From Bacteroidota bacterium (lineage in GTDB: Bacteria; Bacteroidota; Bacteroidia; Bacteroidales; NBLH01): a stretch of 64,000 nucleotides of DNA. The notes under the pieces were generated by a model. It did no database searches, had not been told where the DNA came from, and saw only the letters and a list, made by a program, of their open reading frames with translations. How positions within the stretch are numbered: position 1 is the stretch's first letter; each line of letters opens with the position of its first letter. Of the stretch, positions 1 to 42,862 are shown one piece after another. The position numbers and the translations under genes are program-made. The stretch is from positions 1 to 64,000 of the forward strand of contig JANYKN010000005.1 of assembly GCA_025361565.1 (NCBI GenBank). The letters run 5' to 3'.

Positions 1-162
1 CCCAATAAAGATAGAATTGCTGGAATTTATTTAGTGGGGAATACAAGTACTTTTAATGGACATGTTTCTAGGGTCTTTCATTCTGTAGGTAATCGAGTAG
101 AAGCACCGTTAGATATGAATACCCTTTCAGCAAGAATTCGCAGTAAAATTGAGGAAAATTAA
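1..162 (+). CDS. C-terminal 53 residues of an unidentified protein (5' end outside window)
   Basis: Frame 1 is open from the first base to a TAA at 160-162. The segment begins PNKDRIAGIYLVGN and ends RSKIEEN. I do not recognise the family. The next gene begins 4 nt after this stop, so the two are probably co-transcribed. The fragment is too short to assign a function. Confidence 0.5.
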   Translation, partial: PNKDRIAGIYLVGNTSTFNGHVSRVFHSVGNRVEAPLDMNTLSARIRSKIEEN

Positions 163-166
163 TCAA

Positions 167-553
167 ATGACTTCAAAAAATAACACTTTCGATCCATTGA
201 CATTTGACATAAATACTGAAATTTTTAAAATTGTTCAATTGTCAACTAAGCAATCCGAAGACAAAGTGGAGAATATTTTCAAAGAATCGAAAATTGAAAG
301 TTGGTTGAAGAATAATCGTGGAGATACATATTTTAGGATTAAATTAGAGCTTAAACCAGCCGCTGAAAGAATGTTTTTCTATGAGTTTAAAGAAATATAT
401 TTAGATAGGATTAGATTATATCTAATCAAAGAGAGTAACTGCATCGGAGAAGAGGCTGGAAAATTAAAAGGAGGTTCAAGGTGTGCAAATTCTTCAGTTG
501 TATCAGTGACGGGAGCGGAAAGGTTTTGTTCTTTAAGTTGGAAGACATCGTAA
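167..553 (+). CDS. Hypothetical protein, C-terminus possibly frameshifted
   Basis: The frame opens from a TTG at 149, but the ATG at 167 sits just after the previous stop and is the better start (MTSKNNTF...). About 90 residues look like a normal soluble protein. After residue ~88 (RLYLIKE) the composition turns Cys/Ser/Gly-rich and unnatural. The +1 frame at the same point reads VTASEKRLEN and stops at 465-467, just before a strong AAAGGAGG ribosome-binding site for the next fragment. The real protein may therefore end near 467, with a one-base lesion near 430. Family unknown. Confidence 0.45.
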   Translation: MTSKNNTFDPLTFDINTEIFKIVQLSTKQSEDKVENIFKESKIESWLKNNRGDTYFRIKLELKPAAERMFFYEFKEIYLDRIRLYLIKESNCIGEEAGKLKGGSRCANSSVVSVTGAERFCSLSWKTS

Positions 554-621
554 ACGTAATGGCGACGGGGAATAAGAAGGACTACAATTTCAACTCGCAT
601 AATGTATCTTTGAGTTATTAA
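481..621 (+). pseudogene. 5' fragment of a small gene, cut off by the CRISPR array
   Basis: A GTG at 481 follows a strong ribosome-binding site (AAAGGAGG, about 468-474) and opens a 46-codon frame (VCKFFSCISDGSGK...). The frame continues without a break into the decayed first CRISPR repeat and stops at 619-621 inside it. The residues before the junction (NKKDYNFNSH) resemble, from memory, the N-terminal part of small Bacteroidota/phage proteins that continue NSHTSIA. Here the continuation is replaced by repeat sequence. I infer a gene truncated at the distal end of the array; the homology is from memory and untested. Confidence 0.4.
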
Positions 622-2452
622 ACACAGCCCAATTCCGTTATTTTAACATGCAACACAGGTTGTGAATTGCTTTCAATTTGTATCTTTGAGTTATTAAACA
701 CAGCTTTTTCATTGATAGCCTTAACTTCAATTTCGTTGTGAATTGCTTTCAATTTGTATCTTTGAGTTATTAAACACAGCCGGTTGGTTTTCTTTTAGGA
801 AAAGATAAGAGTTGTGAATTGCTTTCAATTTGTATCTTTGAGTTATTAAACACAGCCGGTTACGATTTTACGATGTTGATAATGTAGTTGTGAATTGCTT
901 TCAATTTGTATCTTTGAGTTATTAAACACAGCAATCAACGGACACACAAATCGCATTGGTTTGTTGTGAATTGCTTTCAATTTGTATCTTTGAGTTATTA
1001 AACACAGCCGACTTTTTAACTTTCGATATCCTTGCTCTGTTGTGAATTGCTTTCAATTTGTATCTTTGAGTTATTAAACACAGCTTATCAACGCCAGTTA
1101 CAACTATGGCTACAGTTGTGAATTGCTTTCAATTTGTATCTTTGAGTTATTAAACACAGCTAACTTGAGATTTTACAAATGCTTCTGTTTGTTGTGAATT
1201 GCTTTCAATTTGTATCTTTGAGTTATTAAACACAGCTTTCGCAGGTAACTAAATTACTAAGTGGTAGTTGTGAATTGCTTTCAATTTGTATCTTTGAGTT
1301 ATTAAACACAGCATCTGATATTGTGCCACTATCTACCCCAAAGTTGTGAATTGCTTTCAATTTGTATCTTTGAGTTATTAAACACAGCAGGTTTTCGAAA
1401 ACAAATTATTTTGGTATAGTTGTGAATTGCTTTCAATTTGTATCTTTGAGTTATTAAACACAGCAACATAATAGTCTTTATCTAGTGTCTTAAAGTTGTG
1501 AATTGCTTTCAATTTGTATCTTTGAGTTATTAAACACAGCAAAGGTAAAGTGATAGCCTTTTATTTGGTGGTTGTGAATTGCTTTCAATTTGTATCTTTG
1601 AGTTATTAAACACAGCCAAATGGCGCTTGAATACTGTCGGCAACCTGTTGTGAATTGCTTTCAATTTGTATCTTTGAGTTATTAAACACAGCCCCTTACG
1701 CTGTTTTAGCGCCTGTGCTTGGGTTGTGAATTGCTTTCAATTTGTATCTTTGAGTTATTAAACACAGCATGTTCATTGTTTTTTCATGTATGTTGTAAGT
1801 TGTGAATTGCTTTCAATTTGTATCTTTGAGTTATTAAACACAGCAAGGAACAGGGCAGGGAAAAGCAGCAATGCGTTGTGAATTGCTTTCAATTTGTATC
1901 TTTGAGTTATTAAACACAGCAAGTATATTGCCGAAATTATGAAACAACGTGTTGTGAATTGCTTTCAATTTGTATCTTTGAGTTATTAAACACAGCTAAT
2001 CGAAAAAGCATTATTAATGATATTCAGTTGTGAATTGCTTTCAATTTGTATCTTTGAGTTATTAAACACAGCATTTAATAGCGACGATTTACCTTTTTAG
2101 CAGTTGTGAATTGCTTTCAATTTGTATCTTTGAGTTATTAAACACAGCCGTTTTGCGCTTTCGGCTCTTGTTATTCCTGTTGTGAATTGCTTTCAATTTG
2201 TATCTTTGAGTTATTAAACACAGCATTTTAAACAAGATTAAAAATGAAAAAACAGTTGTGAATTGCTTTCAATTTGTATCTTTGAGTTATTAAACACAGC
2301 TCAACAATGGTATCATGTGCATGCTTTAGGGTTGTGAATTGCTTTCAATTTGTATCTTTGAGTTATTAAACACAGCTTGCCCATTAATCAATATTAATTA
2401 TAATGGGTTGTGAATTGCTTTCAATTTGTATCTTTGAGTTATTAAACACAGC
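583..2452 (+). CRISPR. Type II-C CRISPR array, 25 repeats and 24 spacers
   Basis: Twenty-four intact 46-nt repeats (beginning GTTGTGAATTGC, ending TTAAACACAGC) start at 659 and recur every 76 nt up to 2407. Each start was checked, so all spacers between intact repeats are exactly 30 nt. A 25th repeat at 583-628 keeps only its last 26 nt, with the first 20 nt decayed, and is followed by another 30-nt spacer. The tracrRNA anti-repeat pairs with the first ~22 nt of the plus-strand repeat, so crRNAs are read left to right, towards cas2. The decayed repeat lies at 583, so new spacers probably enter at 2452, next to cas2/cas1. This layout, with transcription from the old end, is the one known from other II-C systems such as Neisseria. 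Confidence 0.98.
659..688 (+). promoter_or_regulatory. Promoter embedded in each CRISPR repeat (first intact copy shown)
   Basis: Repeat positions 23-30 read TATCTTTG, an exact match to the Bacteroidota -7 box TAnnTTTG. GTTG at repeat positions 1-4 lies 18 nt upstream, where the -33 TTG/TTTG box is expected. Transcription would start about 5-8 nt downstream, just before the spacer. The same pair occurs in all 24 intact repeats. The decayed repeat at 583 keeps the -7 box (605-612) but has lost the -33 box. The sequence match is direct; promoter activity is inferred. Confidence 0.7.
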
Positions 2453-2520
2453 ATACCTTGCGTTTATTAACTGTTTTTCAGCAAATTAACTCAAGAATTA
2501 GGATTAAAAAAAGTTGTGTT

Positions 2521-2556
2521 AAAAAACCAGTTGACTTAAAATTCGACTGGTTTTTT
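2521..2556. terminator. Bidirectional terminator hairpin between the array and cas2
   Basis: The arms AAAAAACCAGTTGA (2521-2534) and TCGACTGGTTTTTT (2543-2556) pair over 14 bp with one G-U, around an 8-nt loop, with further Ts after it. It can end plus-strand array transcripts. On the minus strand it also ends in a U run, for cas2 transcripts. The 68 nt between the last repeat and this hairpin is the likely integration-side flank. Confidence 0.75.
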
Positions 2557-2603
2557 TTATTATATTCCTTAAATCAATAAGTGTATGATTAAATAGCTGA
2601 CAA

Positions 2604-2670
2604 TCACGGGGTGACTAAATTCTGTATAGTTTTTTCAATTCCCTATAAATCAAAGAATCACCCCGTGAAT
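2604..2670. repeat. REP palindrome copy A, split by a 43-nt insert
   Basis: The halves TCACGGGGTGA (2604-2614) and TCACCCCGTGA (2658-2668) are the two arms of the palindrome found around the transposase at 4.1-4.8 kb. Here they are separated by 43 nt of AT-rich sequence. The copy lies just downstream of the cas2 stop. Confidence 0.8.
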
Positions 2671-2688
2671 TACGGATTTAAGAATATT

Positions 2689-3030
2689 CTAAAACAAAGA
2701 AAGCTGTTGGGGGATTTCGGGTTTATCCTTTTCTTTTTTCCCGAAAAACAATTCCATCATGCCGAATTGTTTATCGGTTACCCGGAGAATACCGATATGT
2801 CCTTGCGGAGGCAAATTTTGTTTGACTCTTTTGACATGTACTTCAGCATTTTCGCGACTATTGCAATGCCTTAGATAAATCGAAAACTGGAACATATAAA
2901 AACCATCTTTTTCAAGCCTTTTTCTAAAAACAACATAGTTCTTTTTGTCGCCTTTGGTTTCGGTTGGCAAATCAAAAAACACCATTACCCACATAACACG
3001 GTATTCATTTAATCGGTTTAGGTTATCCAT
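2689..3030 (-). CDS. cas2: CRISPR-associated endonuclease Cas2
   Basis: 113 residues. Cas2 forms the Cas1-Cas2 integrase that inserts new spacers. The start [19 protein letters not shown] matches the first beta strand and the FDLP motif (Asp metal ligand) of type II Cas2, and [13 protein letters not shown] is the later ferredoxin-fold strand. The frame is open further upstream to a TTG at 3066, but the ATG at 3030 gives the usual length and N-terminus. It lies 56 nt downstream of cas1 on the same strand, as expected for a cas9-cas1-cas2 order. The 3' end is followed by REP copy A and the array. Confidence 0.93.
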
Positions 3031-3086
3031 ATTCTTACTTTTATAAAACTGGGGGTGCGACGTCAAGTCGCGCTCCCAGTTTTATT

Positions 3087-4031
3087 TTACAATTCCGGAT
3101 ATAAAATTTTTCTTGCATTTCCTTCAAAACATTGATATAAACTTGCCGTTGTCCTTTGCGCTGCAAGCATCAATGGGCTTTGTTCTCCATCAATCAACAC
3201 ATCAATTGCGGGTATTTTCAGTAACTCAACTTTTATTTCGGGGGTTAATTCAAATCCTTTATCTGCCCAACTTTCGGAATAATATTTTTCTACCAAATCG
3301 CGCACTATCAAATCTACATAAGGCCTATATGGTTCCATAATATCATCGGCAAGTGCATAGGCATTGTATTTATTGTGGTGGTGTATTCCAAGGGTTGGCA
3401 ACATGCCCGATGCTGTCAAGTTTCGGGCAATAGTAGCACGAAGAATGGCATAACCATAATTTAATAAATTATTGGGCTCTAATTCAAATCTTCCTCTTTT
3501 AAAACCTTTGATTATATCTACAAAAATATTTTTCCAATAAAATGCCGCTGCACGGCCTTCATAGTTATCCGGATCGCCTGATTTTACACTTTCTTCCCAA
3601 TAATCCATATTCTCGAAAGGAAATTCAGGAGAATCGAGTAAGCCATCCTCGCACAATTGCCTTAATAGACTGGCCTGATTGTGTATTTTTGCTTTGATGG
3701 TCTGTTGCCATAATTGTTTTTTTAGCGGCAGGCTTGCTTCGAGTTGTACTGCAAAACGTTCCTGCTGCAATGTATTGCCGTCGAGATTTAGCATCAATCC
3801 TTGGGGCATATGCTTTTCGTCGCAGCTTATCAAAGCTACATTGTTGTGGAGCAATTTGCTTAATAGGTTCAGCGAAATAGTCAATTGGTATGCATCCAAG
3901 ATTACAACACCAATATCTTCAATAGCTACCTTGGCCTGTTCCTTGGTTTTATCGGCAAAATCAATAAGCATTTGCTCATCTTTGGTGTGCAGATAGGCAT
4001 TGTTGCCAAAATAGAGGGTTCGTTTTATCAT
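3087..4031 (-). CDS. cas1: CRISPR-associated integrase Cas1 (type II)
   Basis: 314 residues. Cas1 is the metal-dependent spacer integrase. The three acidic/His ligands are in place: Glu in YEGRAAAFYW, His in LGIHHHNKYN, and the acidic group in LADDIMEPYRP. The typical NLLNYGYAILR helix lies between them. The start MIKRTLYFGNNAYL at 4031 is the family's normal N-terminus. The frame stays open a further 59 codons upstream to a TTG at 4208, but that extension reads through a REP palindrome and the end of the transposase gene, so it is not coding. A transposase remnant separates it from cas9. Confidence 0.95.
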   Translation of the reverse strand: MIKRTLYFGNNAYLHTKDEQMLIDFADKTKEQAKVAIEDIGVVILDAYQLTISLNLLSKLLHNNVALISCDEKHMPQGLMLNLDGNTLQQERFAVQLEASLPLKKQLWQQTIKAKIHNQASLLRQLCEDGLLDSPEFPFENMDYWEESVKSGDPDNYEGRAAAFYWKNIFVDIIKGFKRGRFELEPNNLLNYGYAILRATIARNLTASGMLPTLGIHHHNKYNAYALADDIMEPYRPYVDLIVRDLVEKYYSESWADKGFELTPEIKVELLKIPAIDVLIDGEQSPLMLAAQRTTASLYQCFEGNARKILYPEL

Positions 4032-4091
4032 AAGGTTTTGATTACTAATTGATAATTGGATAATCGAAACCTTACAAACATCGTGCAATAT

Positions 4092-4124
4092 ATTCACGGG
4101 GTGACTTGAAGTCACCCCGTGAAT
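4092..4124. repeat. REP palindrome copy B, perfect 33-nt inverted repeat
   Basis: Two perfect 16-nt arms (ATTCACGGGGTGACTT and its complement) flank a single central base. It lies between the cas1 start (4031) and the body of the transposase remnant. The transposase stop codon (TGA, minus strand, 4112-4114) is made by the palindrome itself. Confidence 0.9.
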
Positions 4125-4756
4125 AACAAGTACTTTCTTGCTTTTTCTTTGTTGATCAAAGTACCGTTTCTCAGTCCTGCATAATCCATTGCCGATGAAT
4201 ATTCCCAATCCTCAGCATTTTTCACCAAATTGACTTTTACCGGATTCTGATGAATATAGTTAAAACATATTTGGGGATATTGTTTTTCAAAATCATCTGT
4301 ATGAATTATAGTTCCGGCGTTTGTATTGTAAAATAAAGGTGTGATTCCATTTGTTTGGTTTAGGCATTCTGCCTTAGTCGCCTCTCGGAACAATGCCCCG
4401 GAAGAACCATTTTGTTTGTGAATAGCTCTGGTGTATGAACGAAGCATTATAGCTATTGATTGGTTGAGGCTTCGTTTTTTATTCACGGGGTGACTTTGAG
4501 TCACCCCGTGAATTCCATCAAGACTTTGAGTCACCCCGTGAATATCAGCTACATTAATCTCGACCTCATTTACCAGCACCATTAAATGAAAGTGATTAGG
4601 CATCAGGCACCAAGCCAAAATATCGGAATAAGGTAGAATATGATTTTTAATTTTTCGTAGAAAAAACAGATAATTATCCCTGTTAAAAAAAATCTTTTGC
4701 CTGTTGTTTCCCTAATTGTATATGTGGTAAATATTGTCTTTTTCGAAATACATCAT
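4112..4756 (-). pseudogene. REP-associated tyrosine transposase (RAYT, Y1/HUH family), nonsense-mutated
   Basis: From ATG ATG at 4756-4751 the frame reads MMYFEKDNIYHIYN, then meets a TAG at 4714-4712 where the family has the Arg of HIYNRGNN. It then continues in frame for ~200 codons. Key residues are intact: the HUH pair in MPNHFHLMV (about His55 and His57 of the reconstructed protein) and the catalytic Tyr in FNYIHQNPVK (about Tyr167). An internal stretch (ADIHGVTQS...DGIHGVTQSHPVN) is encoded by its own palindromes. RAYTs act in trans on REP palindromes, and five copies or part-copies lie within 2.2 kb. It sits between cas9 and cas1, which are normally adjacent, so I infer an insertion that later died. 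Restart or suppression could give a shorter product, but this is unlikely. Confidence 0.85.
4481..4543. repeat. REP palindrome copy C plus a tandem half-copy D, inside the RAYT frame
   Basis: 4481-4513 is a 33-nt inverted repeat with 15-nt arms (ATTCACGGGGTGACT) and a TTG centre. 4521-4543 repeats its right half (GACTTTGAGTCACC... to GTGAAT). Both lie in frame within the transposase coding sequence, just after the HUH motif. Confidence 0.88.
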
Positions 4757-4767
4757 TTTCTTTTATT

Positions 4768-4800
4768 ATTCACGGGGTGACTTGGAGTCACCCCGTGAGT
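4768..4800. repeat. REP palindrome copy E, upstream of the RAYT start
   Basis: A 33-nt inverted repeat with 15-nt arms, a TGG centre and one mismatch near the right end. It lies 12 nt upstream of the RAYT ATG. Copies E and B therefore bracket the transposase like element ends. The gap back to the end of cas9 (4851) is 50 nt. Confidence 0.88.
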
Positions 4801-4850: not shown

Positions 4851-7800
4851 TCAATAATCTCCAACATGAACTATTTTTCCCAAATGATTGATTCGTACTT
4901 TAATTATTCTTTTAAGTTTCGTCATGCTTTGAATTACTTTAAAAGTTGTTCCTTTCAACTCATTTCGAACATCAACATTTGTTTCTAAATGATGCCTAAA
5001 CCAAAAACCGGATAATAATGAACCAAATTTTTGCACCCTATATAAATGAGGACTTACTAAATGATAATTTTCAATATTCGATAAATCAATTTCTTCGGGA
5101 TCAAAATATTCATCAGGAATAATAAACATTTCATTTTGTTTCATTGTAAATAAAAATTTCCAACCATTTTCGTGATTCTTTTTTATAATTGAAGCACCTG
5201 CATTAACTCGTGCAACTGCTTCATAAAAAGAGACAATTTCTTCTTTTAAATTTCCCTCTTCATCTTTATATATTGCAACATGATGATTATTACCTGTACT
5301 TATATAATCTGAAGGAATATTACTTCCTGTAATATCTAAAACAGGTTTACCCGTATTATCCCTTTTTATATGCAAAGCTTCGGCATTTTTTACACCAGTT
5401 ATTCTTACGCGCTTAATGCTAATTCCTTTTTCTTTATTTAGCCAAATTGGATTTTTATCTAAATTTGAGAAAGCGTCATCAGCTTTTCCTCCAAATTCAG
5501 CTAACCTATCAATTAGAATCCTTTTAATTCCAGCATCAATAACCTTTTCAATATTCAAATCGGGATCAATATTTTTTCGAATGGTATATTCAGTTTCTAA
5601 TTTGACTAATTTTATCATTTCAGGCAAAGGAATATTATCTGAATAGCAAACTGGATTTTTAGCATGGCTATTTTTACCACTAAATGCCTTGGTAGAATCA
5701 TTATTGTTATCGCTTAATCTTTTTATTAAAGCTTCTCTATATTTTCTATTCGAAACAAGCAAAATTGTTGCTTCATCCAATTTACTCCCAATTTTGATTT
5801 CTTTTGTTTCATATCTCCGCAATTTGCCATACACCGTTTCATTATGCATCTGGCCTCGAGGAGTAAAAGTTGTTTGGACTTTATTGGTGCCTGTAATTTT
5901 ATTCTTATTTCGGGTTACCACTTTATTTTTAGCCTTAAAAGAAACAAGCACATTTTCAAGGTGTTTTTTTGATTCATTCCTAAAATTATGGGTAGGAGGA
6001 TTAAATTTCCGTTTTCTGTTTTCATCAAGGTAAGTTTCTTTTTTTTCGATGGCTATTATATTGCTGTGTTTTTTATCATTTTCATTTTTCCTAGCATTCA
6101 AATTGTTTAAATATTGAATATGGTTATGACGTGTAAAAGCAACCGTAAGTGCATCCATTGCATGGTGCCTATGATCGCTTCTTTTTGTCCAATCAACAAT
6201 TCTTTCCTTCGTAGATCCATCTTTCTTTTCAAGTTGTTCTGTAAGGCCTAATTTTCTATATTTCTCAATACTCAATTCCTGCATTACATTTATAATACCC
6301 CAATCTTCGCGAAGTTGGGCAGTTATGCTTCCTGTTGTAGTTAAAACATTCCTACAAATTTCTTGAAGCATTTCTTTTGCTTTTTTGGCAATATATTGTG
6401 TTTCTCGCAAATCACGCTCAATAAAACCTTCACCAATTTCTTCAACTTTAAGTAATAATTTTTTATATTTTGATTTAGAAATATCATCACTTTTAAAAAG
6501 CTTTTCAATTTTTAATTGATATTGTTCAAGCTCTATTTTACCATATTTACTTTTAACAAAATCATATGCAGTATCATCACTTTTATCAATATTCACTTGT
6601 TTTGATTCGATGGTTTTATTGGAAAAACTATCATCAAACATCCTGGATTTTGGAATAATGTGCTCAATATCAAATTCTTTTGAAAACAATTTTTCCTGAG
6701 GTATGTATGTATCGCTATAAAGAGTTTTATAACCATTGTTTTTCAACTCCAAATAAAGTTTATATCTAATTAAATCATTTCTTGTAGGATTTTTAACTCC
6801 AAACTCTTTTTGCAATATTTTAATATACTTTTCATGTTCATTTTTAGCATTATTGACAAATTTTGTCAATGCTTCTCTTTCCTTCGCATTCTTTTTTAGG
6901 TCACGAGCAAGTTCTATCCTTATTTCATCAGGTTTTCCCAGTTCTTCATCTTCAATAATCAAGTTAATTAGATTAACCATTTGGTTTAAAATCTTTTCAA
7001 CAACAGGATTTCTTAAACTATTCTTTGGTAATAAATCAAGTTTGTTTTTAAGCAATCTTTTTTCATTTTCCTCTTTGGTTAATGAAGCAGAATGGTTGTA
7101 GCCCGCGAAGCTACAAGCCTCATCAAATTTATGTTCTTTAATGAATGGTATAATTTTGCGAATAGCTTTGACACTTAAACTACCATAATCATCCTGAAAA
7201 TTTATATTACTTAATATCTGTGCGTATTCTTTTTTAAAACCATATTTTTTTTCCAGTATTTCATATAATGCATTATTGCCAGAATTTGAATTATCCCCTT
7301 CATAAGAATATAATAAATGCCATAATTGATAAGATACTTGATTTTCAAACTCTTTTCCATCAAGTTCAGCATTAAATTCAAGAATATCTGTTTCAATTCC
7401 TAAAGATTTAAAAATAGATTTAACTGCATCTTTTATTTTAAGTGCTGATGAATTCTTAAAATCTATTTCGTAACCTTCTATCTCAAGGATCTTTTCATAA
7501 ACCTCATAAAGTGCCTGATTTGTTCGATTTCCTTCAACTGAATTAAAATTTAAATCCCATTCTTTTGGTTTGTCAATCAATAACTTCAATACTTCTTCTT
7601 TTTTTAATCCACCTTTTATATTTAACTCATCAAAAAGCATTTTCCTATGTTCTAAATCAAAATCAATAAAATCCAAAATTTTACCGCTTTCCTGATTTTT
7701 AATTCTCAAATTTGAAAGGTTTTGCCAAATTTTAAATTCCTGAAATATTGGAGAGGATTTAGGAACTACCCTACTTCCAATTGTCTTAATTTTCGACTTT

Positions 7801-8972
7801 CCATCAATAGTAAAAACCTGCTGTCTGCTTTCAAACTCACAATAACTGATCAAACTTTTTTGCGATTTAAGTCTGCGTTGATAGAATATTACAATATCTT
7901 TTATTTCTTTTTTTAAATCTGCAGTGAGTTCTTCATGGAATTCTTTTTGTTTTTCCCATATTACTTCAAACTCGTCCAGATAATCCAAACGATAAAAAAT
8001 CTGGCCTTTAATCCTATAATGAGGATTGATTTTTAGCTTATTATAAAGATATTGACCAACAGTTTCTTTATTGAAAAATAGTTCCTTGCTCCTATCACTT
8101 ATTGCTCCTAAATAACCACTCGAATTATTTAAATTATTGTTTATTTCGCAAATAACATATGCAAGTTCCGATAATTCAAGCTTTTCAGAAATTGCATTAC
8201 TTCGCCATTTATATGCCTGAATTTGTTTTTCGGCACGGTTTGCTTTATTTTCAGCTGTAAAAATACCATGAATAGCTAGGAATCTTTTCCTTGTATTTTG
8301 AAGACCCTGTCCTTGAATTGATTTATAAAACTCCTCAGTAAATATTTCCGGATAAAATTGTTTTTGAAATCTCCATACTTTATCAAATTCATTTTGTAAA
8401 TCTGAACGATAAAAGTCAGGTAAAACTTTTTTACCTTTTACTAGTTGTTGATAACAGAATTGGCCTGGAGTAAGATCTTTCTCATATAGAATTTTTGCAG
8501 TTTCCATTCCATCTATAGCAGTGCCTTCTTCGTCATTTTTAGCTTTTCGACTACTTTTATATCCCCTTTTTTTATTTATTGCTAGTAGCACTCTGGCAAA
8601 TTCCGCTAATTCAATCTTTTCAGAAGCAGATTTTGCCCTTAACGCAAATGTACTATGTGTAGTATCCTTTCCATTTTCTGGTAAAATAGTATCGAGAACA
8701 ATAAATTTGTTTTGCACTAACACCTCTATCAAGTTATTCCTTCGCAATTTATATCGCTGTAAATTCCGTCTTGCACTTCTTTTTTGAGTTCTTCCTGCAT
8801 TAACAGAGATTTTTTTTCCTTTTTCAAAATCATTTAGTTCGTCTGTTGACAAAGGATTAACTCTAACTCCAATTCTTACTATTTCAGATTTTTCTTCATT
8901 TGTTTCTGCCTCTTTAACAAAAGCCCATCCTATGGAAGTAGTGCCTAAATCCAGTCCAAGTATTTTTTTCAT
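4851..8972 (-). CDS. cas9: Type II-C CRISPR RNA-guided endonuclease Cas9
   Basis: 1373 residues, within the usual range for large Bacteroidota Cas9. RuvC-I is at the N-terminus (LGLDLGTTSIGWA, Asp8), followed by the Arg-rich bridge helix (AGRTQKRSARRNLQRYKLRR, ~60-80). RuvC-II is IRIELARDL (Glu near 684). The HNH site is FDIEHIIPKSRMFDDSFSNK (His near 770). RuvC-III is DHRHHAMDALTVAF (His/Asp near 935-938). No inactivating change is visible, so both strands of a target should be cut. No csn2 or cas4 is present, which fits II-C. It is divergent from the tracrRNA and normally co-transcribed with cas1-cas2, but a RAYT remnant now lies between them. Confidence 0.98.
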   Translation of the reverse strand: MKKILGLDLGTTSIGWAFVKEAETNEEKSEIVRIGVRVNPLSTDELNDFEKGKKISVNAGRTQKRSARRNLQRYKLRRNNLIEVLVQNKFIVLDTILPENGKDTTHSTFALRAKSASEKIELAEFARVLLAINKKRGYKSSRKAKNDEEGTAIDGMETAKILYEKDLTPGQFCYQQLVKGKKVLPDFYRSDLQNEFDKVWRFQKQFYPEIFTEEFYKSIQGQGLQNTRKRFLAIHGIFTAENKANRAEKQIQAYKWRSNAISEKLELSELAYVICEINNNLNNSSGYLGAISDRSKELFFNKETVGQYLYNKLKINPHYRIKGQIFYRLDYLDEFEVIWEKQKEFHEELTADLKKEIKDIVIFYQRRLKSQKSLISYCEFESRQQVFTIDGKSKIKTIGSRVVPKSSPIFQEFKIWQNLSNLRIKNQESGKILDFIDFDLEHRKMLFDELNIKGGLKKEEVLKLLIDKPKEWDLNFNSVEGNRTNQALYEVYEKILEIEGYEIDFKNSSALKIKDAVKSIFKSLGIETDILEFNAELDGKEFENQVSYQLWHLLYSYEGDNSNSGNNALYEILEKKYGFKKEYAQILSNINFQDDYGSLSVKAIRKIIPFIKEHKFDEACSFAGYNHSASLTKEENEKRLLKNKLDLLPKNSLRNPVVEKILNQMVNLINLIIEDEELGKPDEIRIELARDLKKNAKEREALTKFVNNAKNEHEKYIKILQKEFGVKNPTRNDLIRYKLYLELKNNGYKTLYSDTYIPQEKLFSKEFDIEHIIPKSRMFDDSFSNKTIESKQVNIDKSDDTAYDFVKSKYGKIELEQYQLKIEKLFKSDDISKSKYKKLLLKVEEIGEGFIERDLRETQYIAKKAKEMLQEICRNVLTTTGSITAQLREDWGIINVMQELSIEKYRKLGLTEQLEKKDGSTKERIVDWTKRSDHRHHAMDALTVAFTRHNHIQYLNNLNARKNENDKKHSNIIAIEKKETYLDENRKRKFNPPTHNFRNESKKHLENVLVSFKAKNKVVTRNKNKITGTNKVQTTFTPRGQMHNETVYGKLRRYETKEIKIGSKLDEATILLVSNRKYREALIKRLSDNNNDSTKAFSGKNSHAKNPVCYSDNIPLPEMIKLVKLETEYTIRKNIDPDLNIEKVIDAGIKRILIDRLAEFGGKADDAFSNLDKNPIWLNKEKGISIKRVRITGVKNAEALHIKRDNTGKPVLDITGSNIPSDYISTGNNHHVAIYKDEEGNLKEEIVSFYEAVARVNAGASIIKKNHENGWKFLFTMKQNEMFIIPDEYFDPEEIDLSNIENYHLVSPHLYRVQKFGSLLSGFWFRHHLETNVDVRNELKGTTFKVIQSMTKLKRIIKVRINHLGKIVHVGDY

Positions 8973-9051: not shown

Positions 9052-9081
9052 TTTGGAAATAAGAAAAAAAGTGTATATTTT
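9052..9081 (+). promoter_or_regulatory. Predicted tracrRNA promoter
   Basis: TTTG (9052-9055) and TATATTTT (9074-9081) are separated by 18 nt. The second box matches TAnnTTTG at 7 of 8 positions. This is the same 18-nt spacing as in each CRISPR repeat. Transcription would begin about 9086-9089, at the first base of the anti-repeat. Confidence 0.6.
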
Positions 9082-9086
9082 TACAA

Positions 9087-9170
9087 CACAAATTGAAGCA
9101 ATTCACAATAAGGATTATTCCGTTGTGAAAACACTTAAAGCGGTTCTTTCGGGAATCGCTTTCTTTGTTT
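9087..9170 (+). ncRNA. tracrRNA
   Basis: CAAATTGAAGCAATTCACAA (9089-9108) is the reverse complement of repeat positions 3-22 with one base missing, giving a single bulge in the repeat:anti-repeat duplex. It is followed by the conserved II-C tail motif AAGGATTATTCCGTTGTGAAAAC and a perfect 10-bp terminator stem (9137-9146 with 9153-9162, loop TTTCGG) ending in CTTTGTTT. It lies upstream of cas9 on the opposite strand. Start and end are estimated from the promoter and the terminator. A 64-codon frame across it (8978-9172) is accidental. Confidence 0.93.
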
Positions 9171-9542
9171 AATTGAACCCTCCATACTAGATTTCTAATT
9201 TCTTTATTTTTTTAAAGATAGAATTAAAATCTAAAAACCCATAGATAATTAGGGAATATATTTTTAAAGAATGAGTGAATTGCTAATTCAAACTCAACCC
9301 CGACCCTCTTCTAGCTAAAGATAAAGTGAAAACTCGGACCAGCCAGAAATTAAACTCAATTAAAGTCTTAATTATACAAATAACATTTGGGCCAGAAAAC
9401 AAATTTGATATAATCGTTAAATAGTTCAAATTCAGATAGTCTAATTTTTACTTTAGTACATATTGCTTAGGAAAAGATCGATAAAAAATATAAGTTGCAG
9501 TTTAGTAAAAGCAAAAAATGTATATTGCGCCAAATTTTTAAA
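9171..9542. other. Intergenic gap after the tracrRNA
   Basis: This AT-rich stretch has no supportable gene. A TATATTG near 9521-9527, just upstream of the acyltransferase ATG, could be its -7 box. Nothing else was recognised. Confidence 0.4.
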
Positions 9543-41820: not shown

Positions 41821-41878
41821 TTTACTTGATATCAGTCAAGCTTTTATCTTTTATTGATAATCAAAATACTAAAAAAAC

Positions 41879-42862
41879 ATGAACCAATCAAAACAAATTC
41901 AATCTCAACAAAGCAATTCAATAAAAGATACAGTGACTTTAAATAAAGAACTCAAACAGCAATTTAAAAGTAATGATATCAGAACAAATTATGGAAAAGT
42001 CTGGTTGGTTGGGTTTGGGCCCGGCGATCCGGAACTGCTAACCATCAAAGGCTTGAAATTATTACAAACTGCCGATATTATTTTTTACGACGATCTGCTT
42101 AACAAAGAATATGTTGCAGAGTTCAAGGCAGAAAAAGTTTACGTGGGAAAACGAAAAGACAAACACAGTTTTGAGCAGAACGAAATCAATAAATTGATGG
42201 TTCAGGCTGCCATTTCAGGAAAAAAAGTGGTTCGGTTAAAAGGTGGCGACCCAATGATATTTGCACATGGAGGAGAAGAAATAGAATATTTGCGTCAAAA
42301 CCAAATTGAAGTAAGTATAGTTCCGGGCATTACGACAGCCCTTGCAGCAGCAGCATACACTGGAATACCGTTAACACATCGCGGTCTGGCATCTTCAGTT
42401 ACTTTTCTTTCCGGTCATTCAATAAAAAAAATGGAAATACCCAAATCGGGAACTTTGGTTCTTTATATGGGAGGTTCCAATTTACAAACCATTGCCAGTG
42501 AAGTAATTCGAAAAGGCTGGAATTCCAACACACCCGTTTTGTTGGCATACAATGTTTCGAATCCCGGCCAGGAAGAATATTATACAACATTAGAACAAAT
42601 TATTAATGAACCAAAAATCTATAAAACACCTGTTATCATTATCATGGGCGATGTGGTGAGGCTTAAAACACAAACTTATGAAACGATTGAAAAGGGCATT
42701 TTGAATGATTCGGAATCTACAACGGCAATAAATCCAATGTTCAAAGAACAAAAACCGTCAATAAATTCACTAATTCCTTCAGGTATAGAAAATTTTAAAC
42801 CACAAAAAAGCATGCATCCGGTTTCAAAACATAAGTTTGTGATTGAGAAAATTGAATCATGA
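41879..42862 (+). CDS. cobA: Uroporphyrinogen-III C-methyltransferase
   Basis: 327 residues. A ~40-residue polar N-terminal extension precedes the tetrapyrrole methylase core: VWLVGFGPGDPELLTIKG, YDDLLNKE, VGKRKDKHSFEQNEIN, VVRLKGGDPMIFAHGGEE, VPGITTALAAAAYTGIPLTHR. It methylates uroporphyrinogen III twice to precorrin-2 using S-adenosylmethionine, giving the substrate for the Met8-like gene upstream. The last ~60 residues are low-complexity. Confidence 0.94.
   Translation: MNQSKQIQSQQSNSIKDTVTLNKELKQQFKSNDIRTNYGKVWLVGFGPGDPELLTIKGLKLLQTADIIFYDDLLNKEYVAEFKAEKVYVGKRKDKHSFEQNEINKLMVQAAISGKKVVRLKGGDPMIFAHGGEEIEYLRQNQIEVSIVPGITTALAAAAYTGIPLTHRGLASSVTFLSGHSIKKMEIPKSGTLVLYMGGSNLQTIASEVIRKGWNSNTPVLLAYNVSNPGQEEYYTTLEQIINEPKIYKTPVIIIMGDVVRLKTQTYETIEKGILNDSESTTAINPMFKEQKPSINSLIPSGIENFKPQKSMHPVSKHKFVIEKIES

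Follow-up and report, generated by a model that had tools for sequence, protein, structure and literature searches.

In the type II-C CRISPR array that opens the window (the whole 64,000-nt stretch of Bacteroidota DNA analyzed here), each repeat most likely initiates a crRNA of its own, transcribed toward the cas2-side end at which spacers are acquired; we put the probability of this reading, which is drawn from sequence comparison, at roughly 85%. Each of the 24 intact repeats carries TATCTTTG at positions 23-30 and GTTG at positions 1-4, with 18 nt between them, as the sequence-only reading had described, and the element TTG-N18-TATCTTTG fully matches the promoter of the Bacteroidota primary sigma factor. 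The proposal made there, a Bacteroidota-type promoter in every repeat aimed at the next spacer, is supported by the enrichment of the motif together with the spacing of its -33 element, and further by the promoters of the tracrRNA genes, the polarity of the arrays, terminators in leaders and mini-cassettes in phages.

The locus consists of a decayed repeat, the array and a leader, followed by cas2, cas1 and cas9 on the minus strand (Table 1). The intact repeats are identical, 46 nt long (GTTGTGAATTGCTTTCAATTTGTATCTTTGAGTTATTAAACACAGC) and extend from 659-704 through 2407-2452, and all 24 spacers, the first of them at 629-658, are exactly 30 nt; in the 6.76-Mb genome assembly, the repeat was confined to this array. 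The profile scores of Cas9, Cas1 and Cas2 exceed the NCBIfam cut-offs. Assignment to type II-C follows from the presence of these three genes with neither csn2 nor cas4 among them, and from a tracrRNA whose anti-repeat (9088-9108) pairs with repeat positions 1-23, stopping where the -7 box begins. Upstream of the array lies an ORF at 149-553 (+). A comparison of the spacers with phages gave no convincing protospacer, so that no PAM was derived. The cas region also holds near-perfect palindromes (TCACGGGGTGACTTnnAGTCACCCCGTGA) in three places (within window positions 2605-2667 and 4094-4798), with single arms at 2605, 2656 and 4529, and none were found elsewhere in the assembly. They surround an ORF at 4112-4618 (-), which had no Pfam match and contains a WCLMPNHFHLMV motif that we take to be reminiscent of REP-associated transposases.

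Table 1. Coordinates of the array, its associated genes and RNA elements in the window, and of the related phage cassette.
Feature	Position	Strand	Remarks
Whole array	583-2452	+	25 repeats (24 intact, 1 decayed), 24 spacers
Decayed first (oldest) repeat	583..628	+	tracr-pairing 5' part gone, box 605-612 intact
Intact repeats and 23 of the 24 spacers	659..2452	+	each repeat: TTG at positions 2-4, 18 nt, TATCTTTG at positions 23-30
First intact-repeat -7 box, TATCTTTG	681..688	+	recurs every 76 nt to 2429-2436
Leader (acquisition-side intergenic region)	2453..2688		last repeat to cas2, 236 nt
Intrinsic terminator, CCAGTTGACTTAAAATTCGACTGG TTTTTTTT	2527..2558	+ (crRNA sense)	74 nt past last repeat
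cas2	2689..3066	-	TIGR01573, 71.4 bits
cas1 (type II)	3087..4208	-	TIGR03639, 283.7 bits
cas9	4851..8972	-	1373 aa; TIGR01865, 459.3 bits; RuvC_III and HNH_4
tracrRNA promoter, TTTG-N18-TATATTTT	9052..9081	+	spacing equals that in repeats
Predicted tracrRNA	~9086..9172	+	divergent from cas genes; 3' hairpin, then T-rich tail
Phage cassette	L182:1450-1620 (PQ782953.1, ~41,850-42,020); L181:1380-1650

A host-type promoter sequence, consisting of an exact TAnnTTTG and a TTG -33 element at 18 nt, lies within each intact repeat in the crRNA sense. TTG-N18-TAnnTTTG occurred 26 times in the window, 24 times within repeats, against 3.0 expected from shuffles. The bare TAnnTTTG was found 110 times versus 115 expected in this AT-rich DNA and is at chance level, so that the window alone is weak evidence and the comparative data carry the argument. 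On the minus strand, the region 400-2700 contains a single TAnnTTTG. The Bacteroidota -7 box has been placed at -12 to -5 relative to the start (PMC9723704); transcription would accordingly begin at repeat position 35 (693, 769 ... 2441), leaving about 12 nt of repeat ahead of each spacer.

Comparative loci were collected with two TIGR01865 searches in 395 Bacteroidota genomes each and a scan with the window Cas9, which yielded about 150 loci; of the arrays in them, 108 could be oriented, and these contain 100 distinct repeats. Among 68 long repeats, 27 contained an exact TAnnTTTG in their 3' part (1.45 expected, maximum of 5 in 500 shuffles) and 62 matched at least 5 of its 6 letters (19.7 expected), and no exact antisense TAnnTTTG was present in the comparative repeats. 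After clustering at 80%, the exact word remained in 14 of 37 long repeats (0.76 expected); after clustering at 70%, which left 13 repeats, the exact-word enrichment was no longer conspicuous, indicating that shared ancestry explains part of the signal, and as the loci are related, nominal probabilities overstate the evidence. When all words of the form XYnnZZZZ were surveyed, TAnnTTTG had the highest count among the top-ranked words and was fourth to fifth by z-score, outranked mostly by overlapping pieces of the TGTATCTTTGA core.

A -7 matrix trained solely on the tracrRNA promoters of the same loci gave medians of 5.5 for long repeats, 0.57 for shuffled and -0.94 for antisense sequences; half of the long repeats, 6% of the shuffled and 0% of the antisense sequences scored above the lower quartile of the tracrRNA promoters. 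The -7 box of the window ranked at the 93rd percentile of the tracrRNA promoter boxes from sister loci. Conservation of individual repeat columns, suggested as a check by the sequence-only reading, was passed weakly: information at the box core is barely above that at the flanks (0.73 vs 0.52, and 0.49 vs 0.46 after clustering). This comparison understates the box because the box shifts register between repeats; with so weak a signal, column conservation was dropped as proof of a promoter. None of the seven II-C repeats that are not of Bacteroidota type contains TAnnTTTG, and four of them have TACAAT at their 3' end. One of the seven, L110 (G469:C28), is a Neisseria-like II-C locus whose repeat ends in TACAATC; the assembly it came from belongs to the same class and has 3% contamination, and the contig is probably a contaminant.

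Scored boxes lay 18 nt (19 repeats), 19 nt (7), 20 nt (1) or 21 nt (3) from the TTG at positions 2-4, which is nearly universal in long repeats and hence does not constitute independent evidence. Boxes at positions 31-32 (e.g. L043, L100, L172) use a second conserved TTG at positions 9-11, with a gap of 19-20 nt. Altogether, a TTG was located 17-21 nt from 54 of 62 boxes, versus 23.4 expected under random placement; 12 of 67 long repeats had no scoring box with a well-spaced TTG. The repeat of L262 has both registers, with TATTTTTA at 23 and GATCTTTG at 32, and may be an intermediate on the way to the box position of L043. In 17 distinct 36-nt repeats from Bacteroidota, the closing positions 31-36 read [T/G]AnnTT, and all 17 have a TTG at 9-11 (gap 19). 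Sister 36-nt repeats end in GATATT, and we suggest that this hexamer supplies six bases of a degenerate -7 box whose last two come from the spacer; in that case, tentatively, transcription would start at spacer nucleotide 7 and yield a 24-nt guide as in Neisseria. A start inside the spacer is predicted only for some 36-nt repeats, those with the box at 31-38, and not for the repeats of the window. Completion of the box by a spacer TG was rejected: in 636 spacers, positions 1-2 were TG in 35 cases, with 42 expected.

The tracrRNA genes of the sister loci have the same type of promoter: an exact TAnnTTTG was present just upstream of the anti-repeat in 44 of 94 genes (5.8 expected). The gap to a TTG peaked at 18-20 nt, which was observed 38 times among the 69 tracrRNA promoters used, so the -33 TTG is far from universal. 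In the window, anti-repeat pairing amounts to -27.7 kcal/mol with the intact repeat versus -4.3 kcal/mol with the decayed repeat; RNA duplexes past repeat position 24 were discarded, as they drew on sequence upstream of the predicted tracrRNA start.

The decayed repeat marks the old end of the array. It retains positions 21-46 and has lost most of positions 1-20, GTTG included, in agreement with the earlier claim that only the half with the -7 box is kept. Read in the crRNA sense, 43 of 71 visible first repeats were altered versus one last repeat; decay amounted to 50% over positions 1-16, to 15% between 17 and the box and to 1.8% inside it, and ended before or at the first box base in 27 of 28 cases. 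A special retention of the box within the 3' half was rejected (1.8% mutated vs 1.9% in the rest of the half): the remaining 3' half is equally retained, so that the test shows the promoter-bearing half to be kept, not the box alone to be selected, and positions 31-46 may be maintained by something other than the box. Replacement -33 elements in decayed first repeats were unconvincing (6 of 27 vs 2.6 expected). In II-C systems, the oldest repeat has been described as mutated in its first 15 nt, with promoter retention suggested as a constraint (PMC12080349), and new spacers enter on the cas2 side in Riemerella anatipestifer (PMC6008519). The window array has this anatomy, with the oldest repeat at the 5' end and the acquisition end downstream of transcription. 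From the decayed repeat, transcription is predicted to start at about 617, and weak expression of the first spacer, as the sequence-only reading had anticipated, is plausible because the -33 element of this repeat is lost.

Transcription toward the acquisition end is also indicated by the leaders, of which 41 of 94 contained an intrinsic terminator in the crRNA sense versus 0.3 in shuffles, often at +66 to +84 after the last repeat; as controls, 13 antisense terminators were found, and 1 in 65 regions upstream of arrays. With this direction of transcription, a leader promoter could not serve the array. For the window array, the only crRNA-sense terminator found lies after the array, so that read-through between units is expected.

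We propose that the repeat is bifunctional. Its first ~23 nt would pair with the tracrRNA and so complete the crRNA belonging to the spacer before it, and its middle (TTG at 2-4, TATCTTTG at 23-30) would serve as a promoter recognized by the primary sigma factor of Bacteroidota, beginning a new transcript ~12 nt ahead of the following spacer. The output of the array would be up to 25 nested transcripts toward cas2, ending at the terminator, and no leader promoter would be needed; spacers joining at the cas2 side would each bring their own promoter. The first repeat, having no upstream spacer, would need just the promoter half, consistent with the decay of its tracr-pairing half.

In the conventional arrangement, a single long pre-crRNA is made from a promoter in the cas2-side leader. 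This was proposed for CRISPR1 of R. anatipestifer, where leader promoters were predicted with the BDGP neural-network tool (PMC5006608), and in most other CRISPR types transcription is indeed driven by leaders (PMC8092290). Such a promoter would, however, generate the complement of the strand whose correct repeat half pairs with the tracrRNA; moreover, the leader has a crRNA-sense terminator, and 2453-2700 contains no exact minus-strand TAnnTTTG. Reading the array from the leader also gave a 5' PAM in R. anatipestifer (PMC6008519), whereas the opposite reading gives a 3' PAM, as in other type II systems. We regard a leader promoter as extremely improbable for the window array. A long pre-crRNA of the same sense, started outside the decayed repeat and cut by RNase III at all 5' ends, with TATCTTTG being incidental, would have the right sense and could arise by read-through from the ORF at 149-553 (+), but the plus strand of 300-583 is free of TAnnTTTG. 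It would moreover leave unexplained the enrichment with sigma-factor spacing, the register shifts to the second TTG and the half-repeat cassettes of phages, and is very unlikely.

More weight, if still little, goes to the reading that the TATCTTTGA core is merely promoter-like and is kept by descent or for another role such as integrase binding or RNA processing, an explanation we judge improbable. It agrees with the fading of exact-word enrichment after 70% clustering and with the equal retention of the rest of the 3' half in first repeats; yet first repeats are past acquisition and tracr pairing and keep this half, the box occurs in two registers at constant distance from a TTG, and repeat boxes fit a matrix trained on tracrRNA promoters. 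Initiation within repeats may, finally, operate alongside longer transcripts that are cut by RNase III together with a nuclease that trims 5' ends. This mixed mode refines the preferred reading and is compatible with it, nothing speaks directly against it, and we consider it somewhat better than an even bet: the predicted start leaves ~12 repeat nt ahead of the spacer, Fp2Cas9 works best with 24-26-nt spacers (PMC12609912), and read-through is expected from the lone terminator after the array.

Repeats of this kind also occur in phages. A 271-bp stretch was near-intact in 12 phage records, 11 of them named as Riemerella phages. It forms a cassette devoid of cas genes that comprises a half-repeat with TATCTTTG, a 30-nt spacer, a full 48-nt II-C repeat and a terminator, and is a candidate phage crRNA gene or RNA anti-CRISPR. 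Further Riemerella phages hold relics of the cassette; CRP19 carries three full repeats and a duplicate of one spacer. The phage spacers had no exact match in viral contigs, and a search of 395 sampled genomes of the class did not turn up the 48-nt repeat. Viral sequences gave 75 single 16-mer matches, most of which are probably due to chance; among them, solitary repeats had seven exact boxes at positions 23-26 and two elsewhere. Solitary II-C-like repeats with a -7-like box were observed in the viral contigs L196, L197, L198, L200, L205 and L262; the repeat at L196:2306-2351 lies directly against the stop codon upstream of it and reaches into the start region of a gene of the ninB/Orf family. 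Judged by their sequences, solitary viral repeats and cassettes resemble putative portable modules of promoter and tracr handle. The generalization that Bacteroidota II-C repeats as such are portable modules of sigma-A promoter and tracr handle is tentative, and we hold it at a little under even odds: the box would shift register at a constant distance from one of two TTGs, the module would have been taken up by phages, either as a crRNA cassette sufficient in itself or as a single repeat directly ahead of a gene such as ninB, and the box of 36-nt repeats would straddle the joint of repeat and spacer. If so, the first two spacer bases of 36-nt arrays would tune the expression of that very spacer.

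RNA anti-CRISPRs and solitary phage repeat units (PMC10651486) are likewise borne by phages without cas genes; the main text of that study does not mention II-C or Bacteroidota, and the element found here comes with a terminator and with a spacer set between a promoter half-repeat and a full repeat. R. anatipestifer CRISPR1 resembles the window locus in its 47-bp II-C repeats, its anti-repeat core TGAAAGCAATTCACAA and its acquisition on the cas2 side (PMC5006608, PMC6008519). Its authors assigned repeats without a promoter, a leader promoter (PMC5006608) and the 5' PAM GWATTN (PMC6008519), opposite to what repeat promoters predict. All three assignments would be explained if repeat promoters drove the array in the reverse direction, a rereading based on the published statements and the phage copy, and the palindrome described in the R. 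anatipestifer leader matches the terminator of the phage cassettes. As the model predicts arrays to be read toward the leader, the leader-promoter and 5'-PAM assignments should then be reversed.

For the II-C array of Flavobacterium columnare, transcription toward the leader was reported, and the TTG that precedes each spacer by 33 bp was put forward as a -33 element; that array differs in its 36-nt repeat, the TTG alone was named, the array was covered by eight reads, and no -7 box was described (PMC8092290). At the Fp2Cas9 locus of F. psychrophilum, RNA-seq shows the array to be transcribed and a promoter was inferred for each repeat, with the TTG motif alone assigned to the repeat and TAnnTTTG to the cas9 promoter (PMC10309648). 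In the literature searched, we found no report placing TAnnTTTG in repeats. A base-level promoter model of this kind would apply to many Bacteroidota Cas9 arrays in testable form, would explain why the oldest repeat keeps just one half, suggests that the native promoter could drive guide cassettes in Bacteroidota, and flags phage elements that resemble cas-free crRNA genes.

In Neisseria, a sigma-70-type box, TACAAT, is situated at the 3' end of the repeat, and transcription starts inside the spacer, leaving no 5' remnant. The parallel drawn by the sequence-only reading holds for the predicted promoter in each repeat and fails for the start, which is predicted ~12 nt before the spacer instead of inside it. 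A promoter in each repeat is established for the II-C systems of N. meningitidis and Campylobacter jejuni (Zhang 2013; Dugar 2013, as cited in PMC12080349 and PMC5006608). The window array has in common with them the genes cas9-cas1-cas2, predicted repeat promoters, acquisition at the 3' end and an oldest repeat decayed in its first ~15 nt; unlike in those systems, its TAnnTTTG box lies 16 nt inside a 46-nt repeat. By its sequence features, the array would thus follow the same logic as those of Neisseria and Campylobacter, with a different sigma consensus, a different place of the promoter within the repeat and a predicted 12-nt 5' remnant being new.
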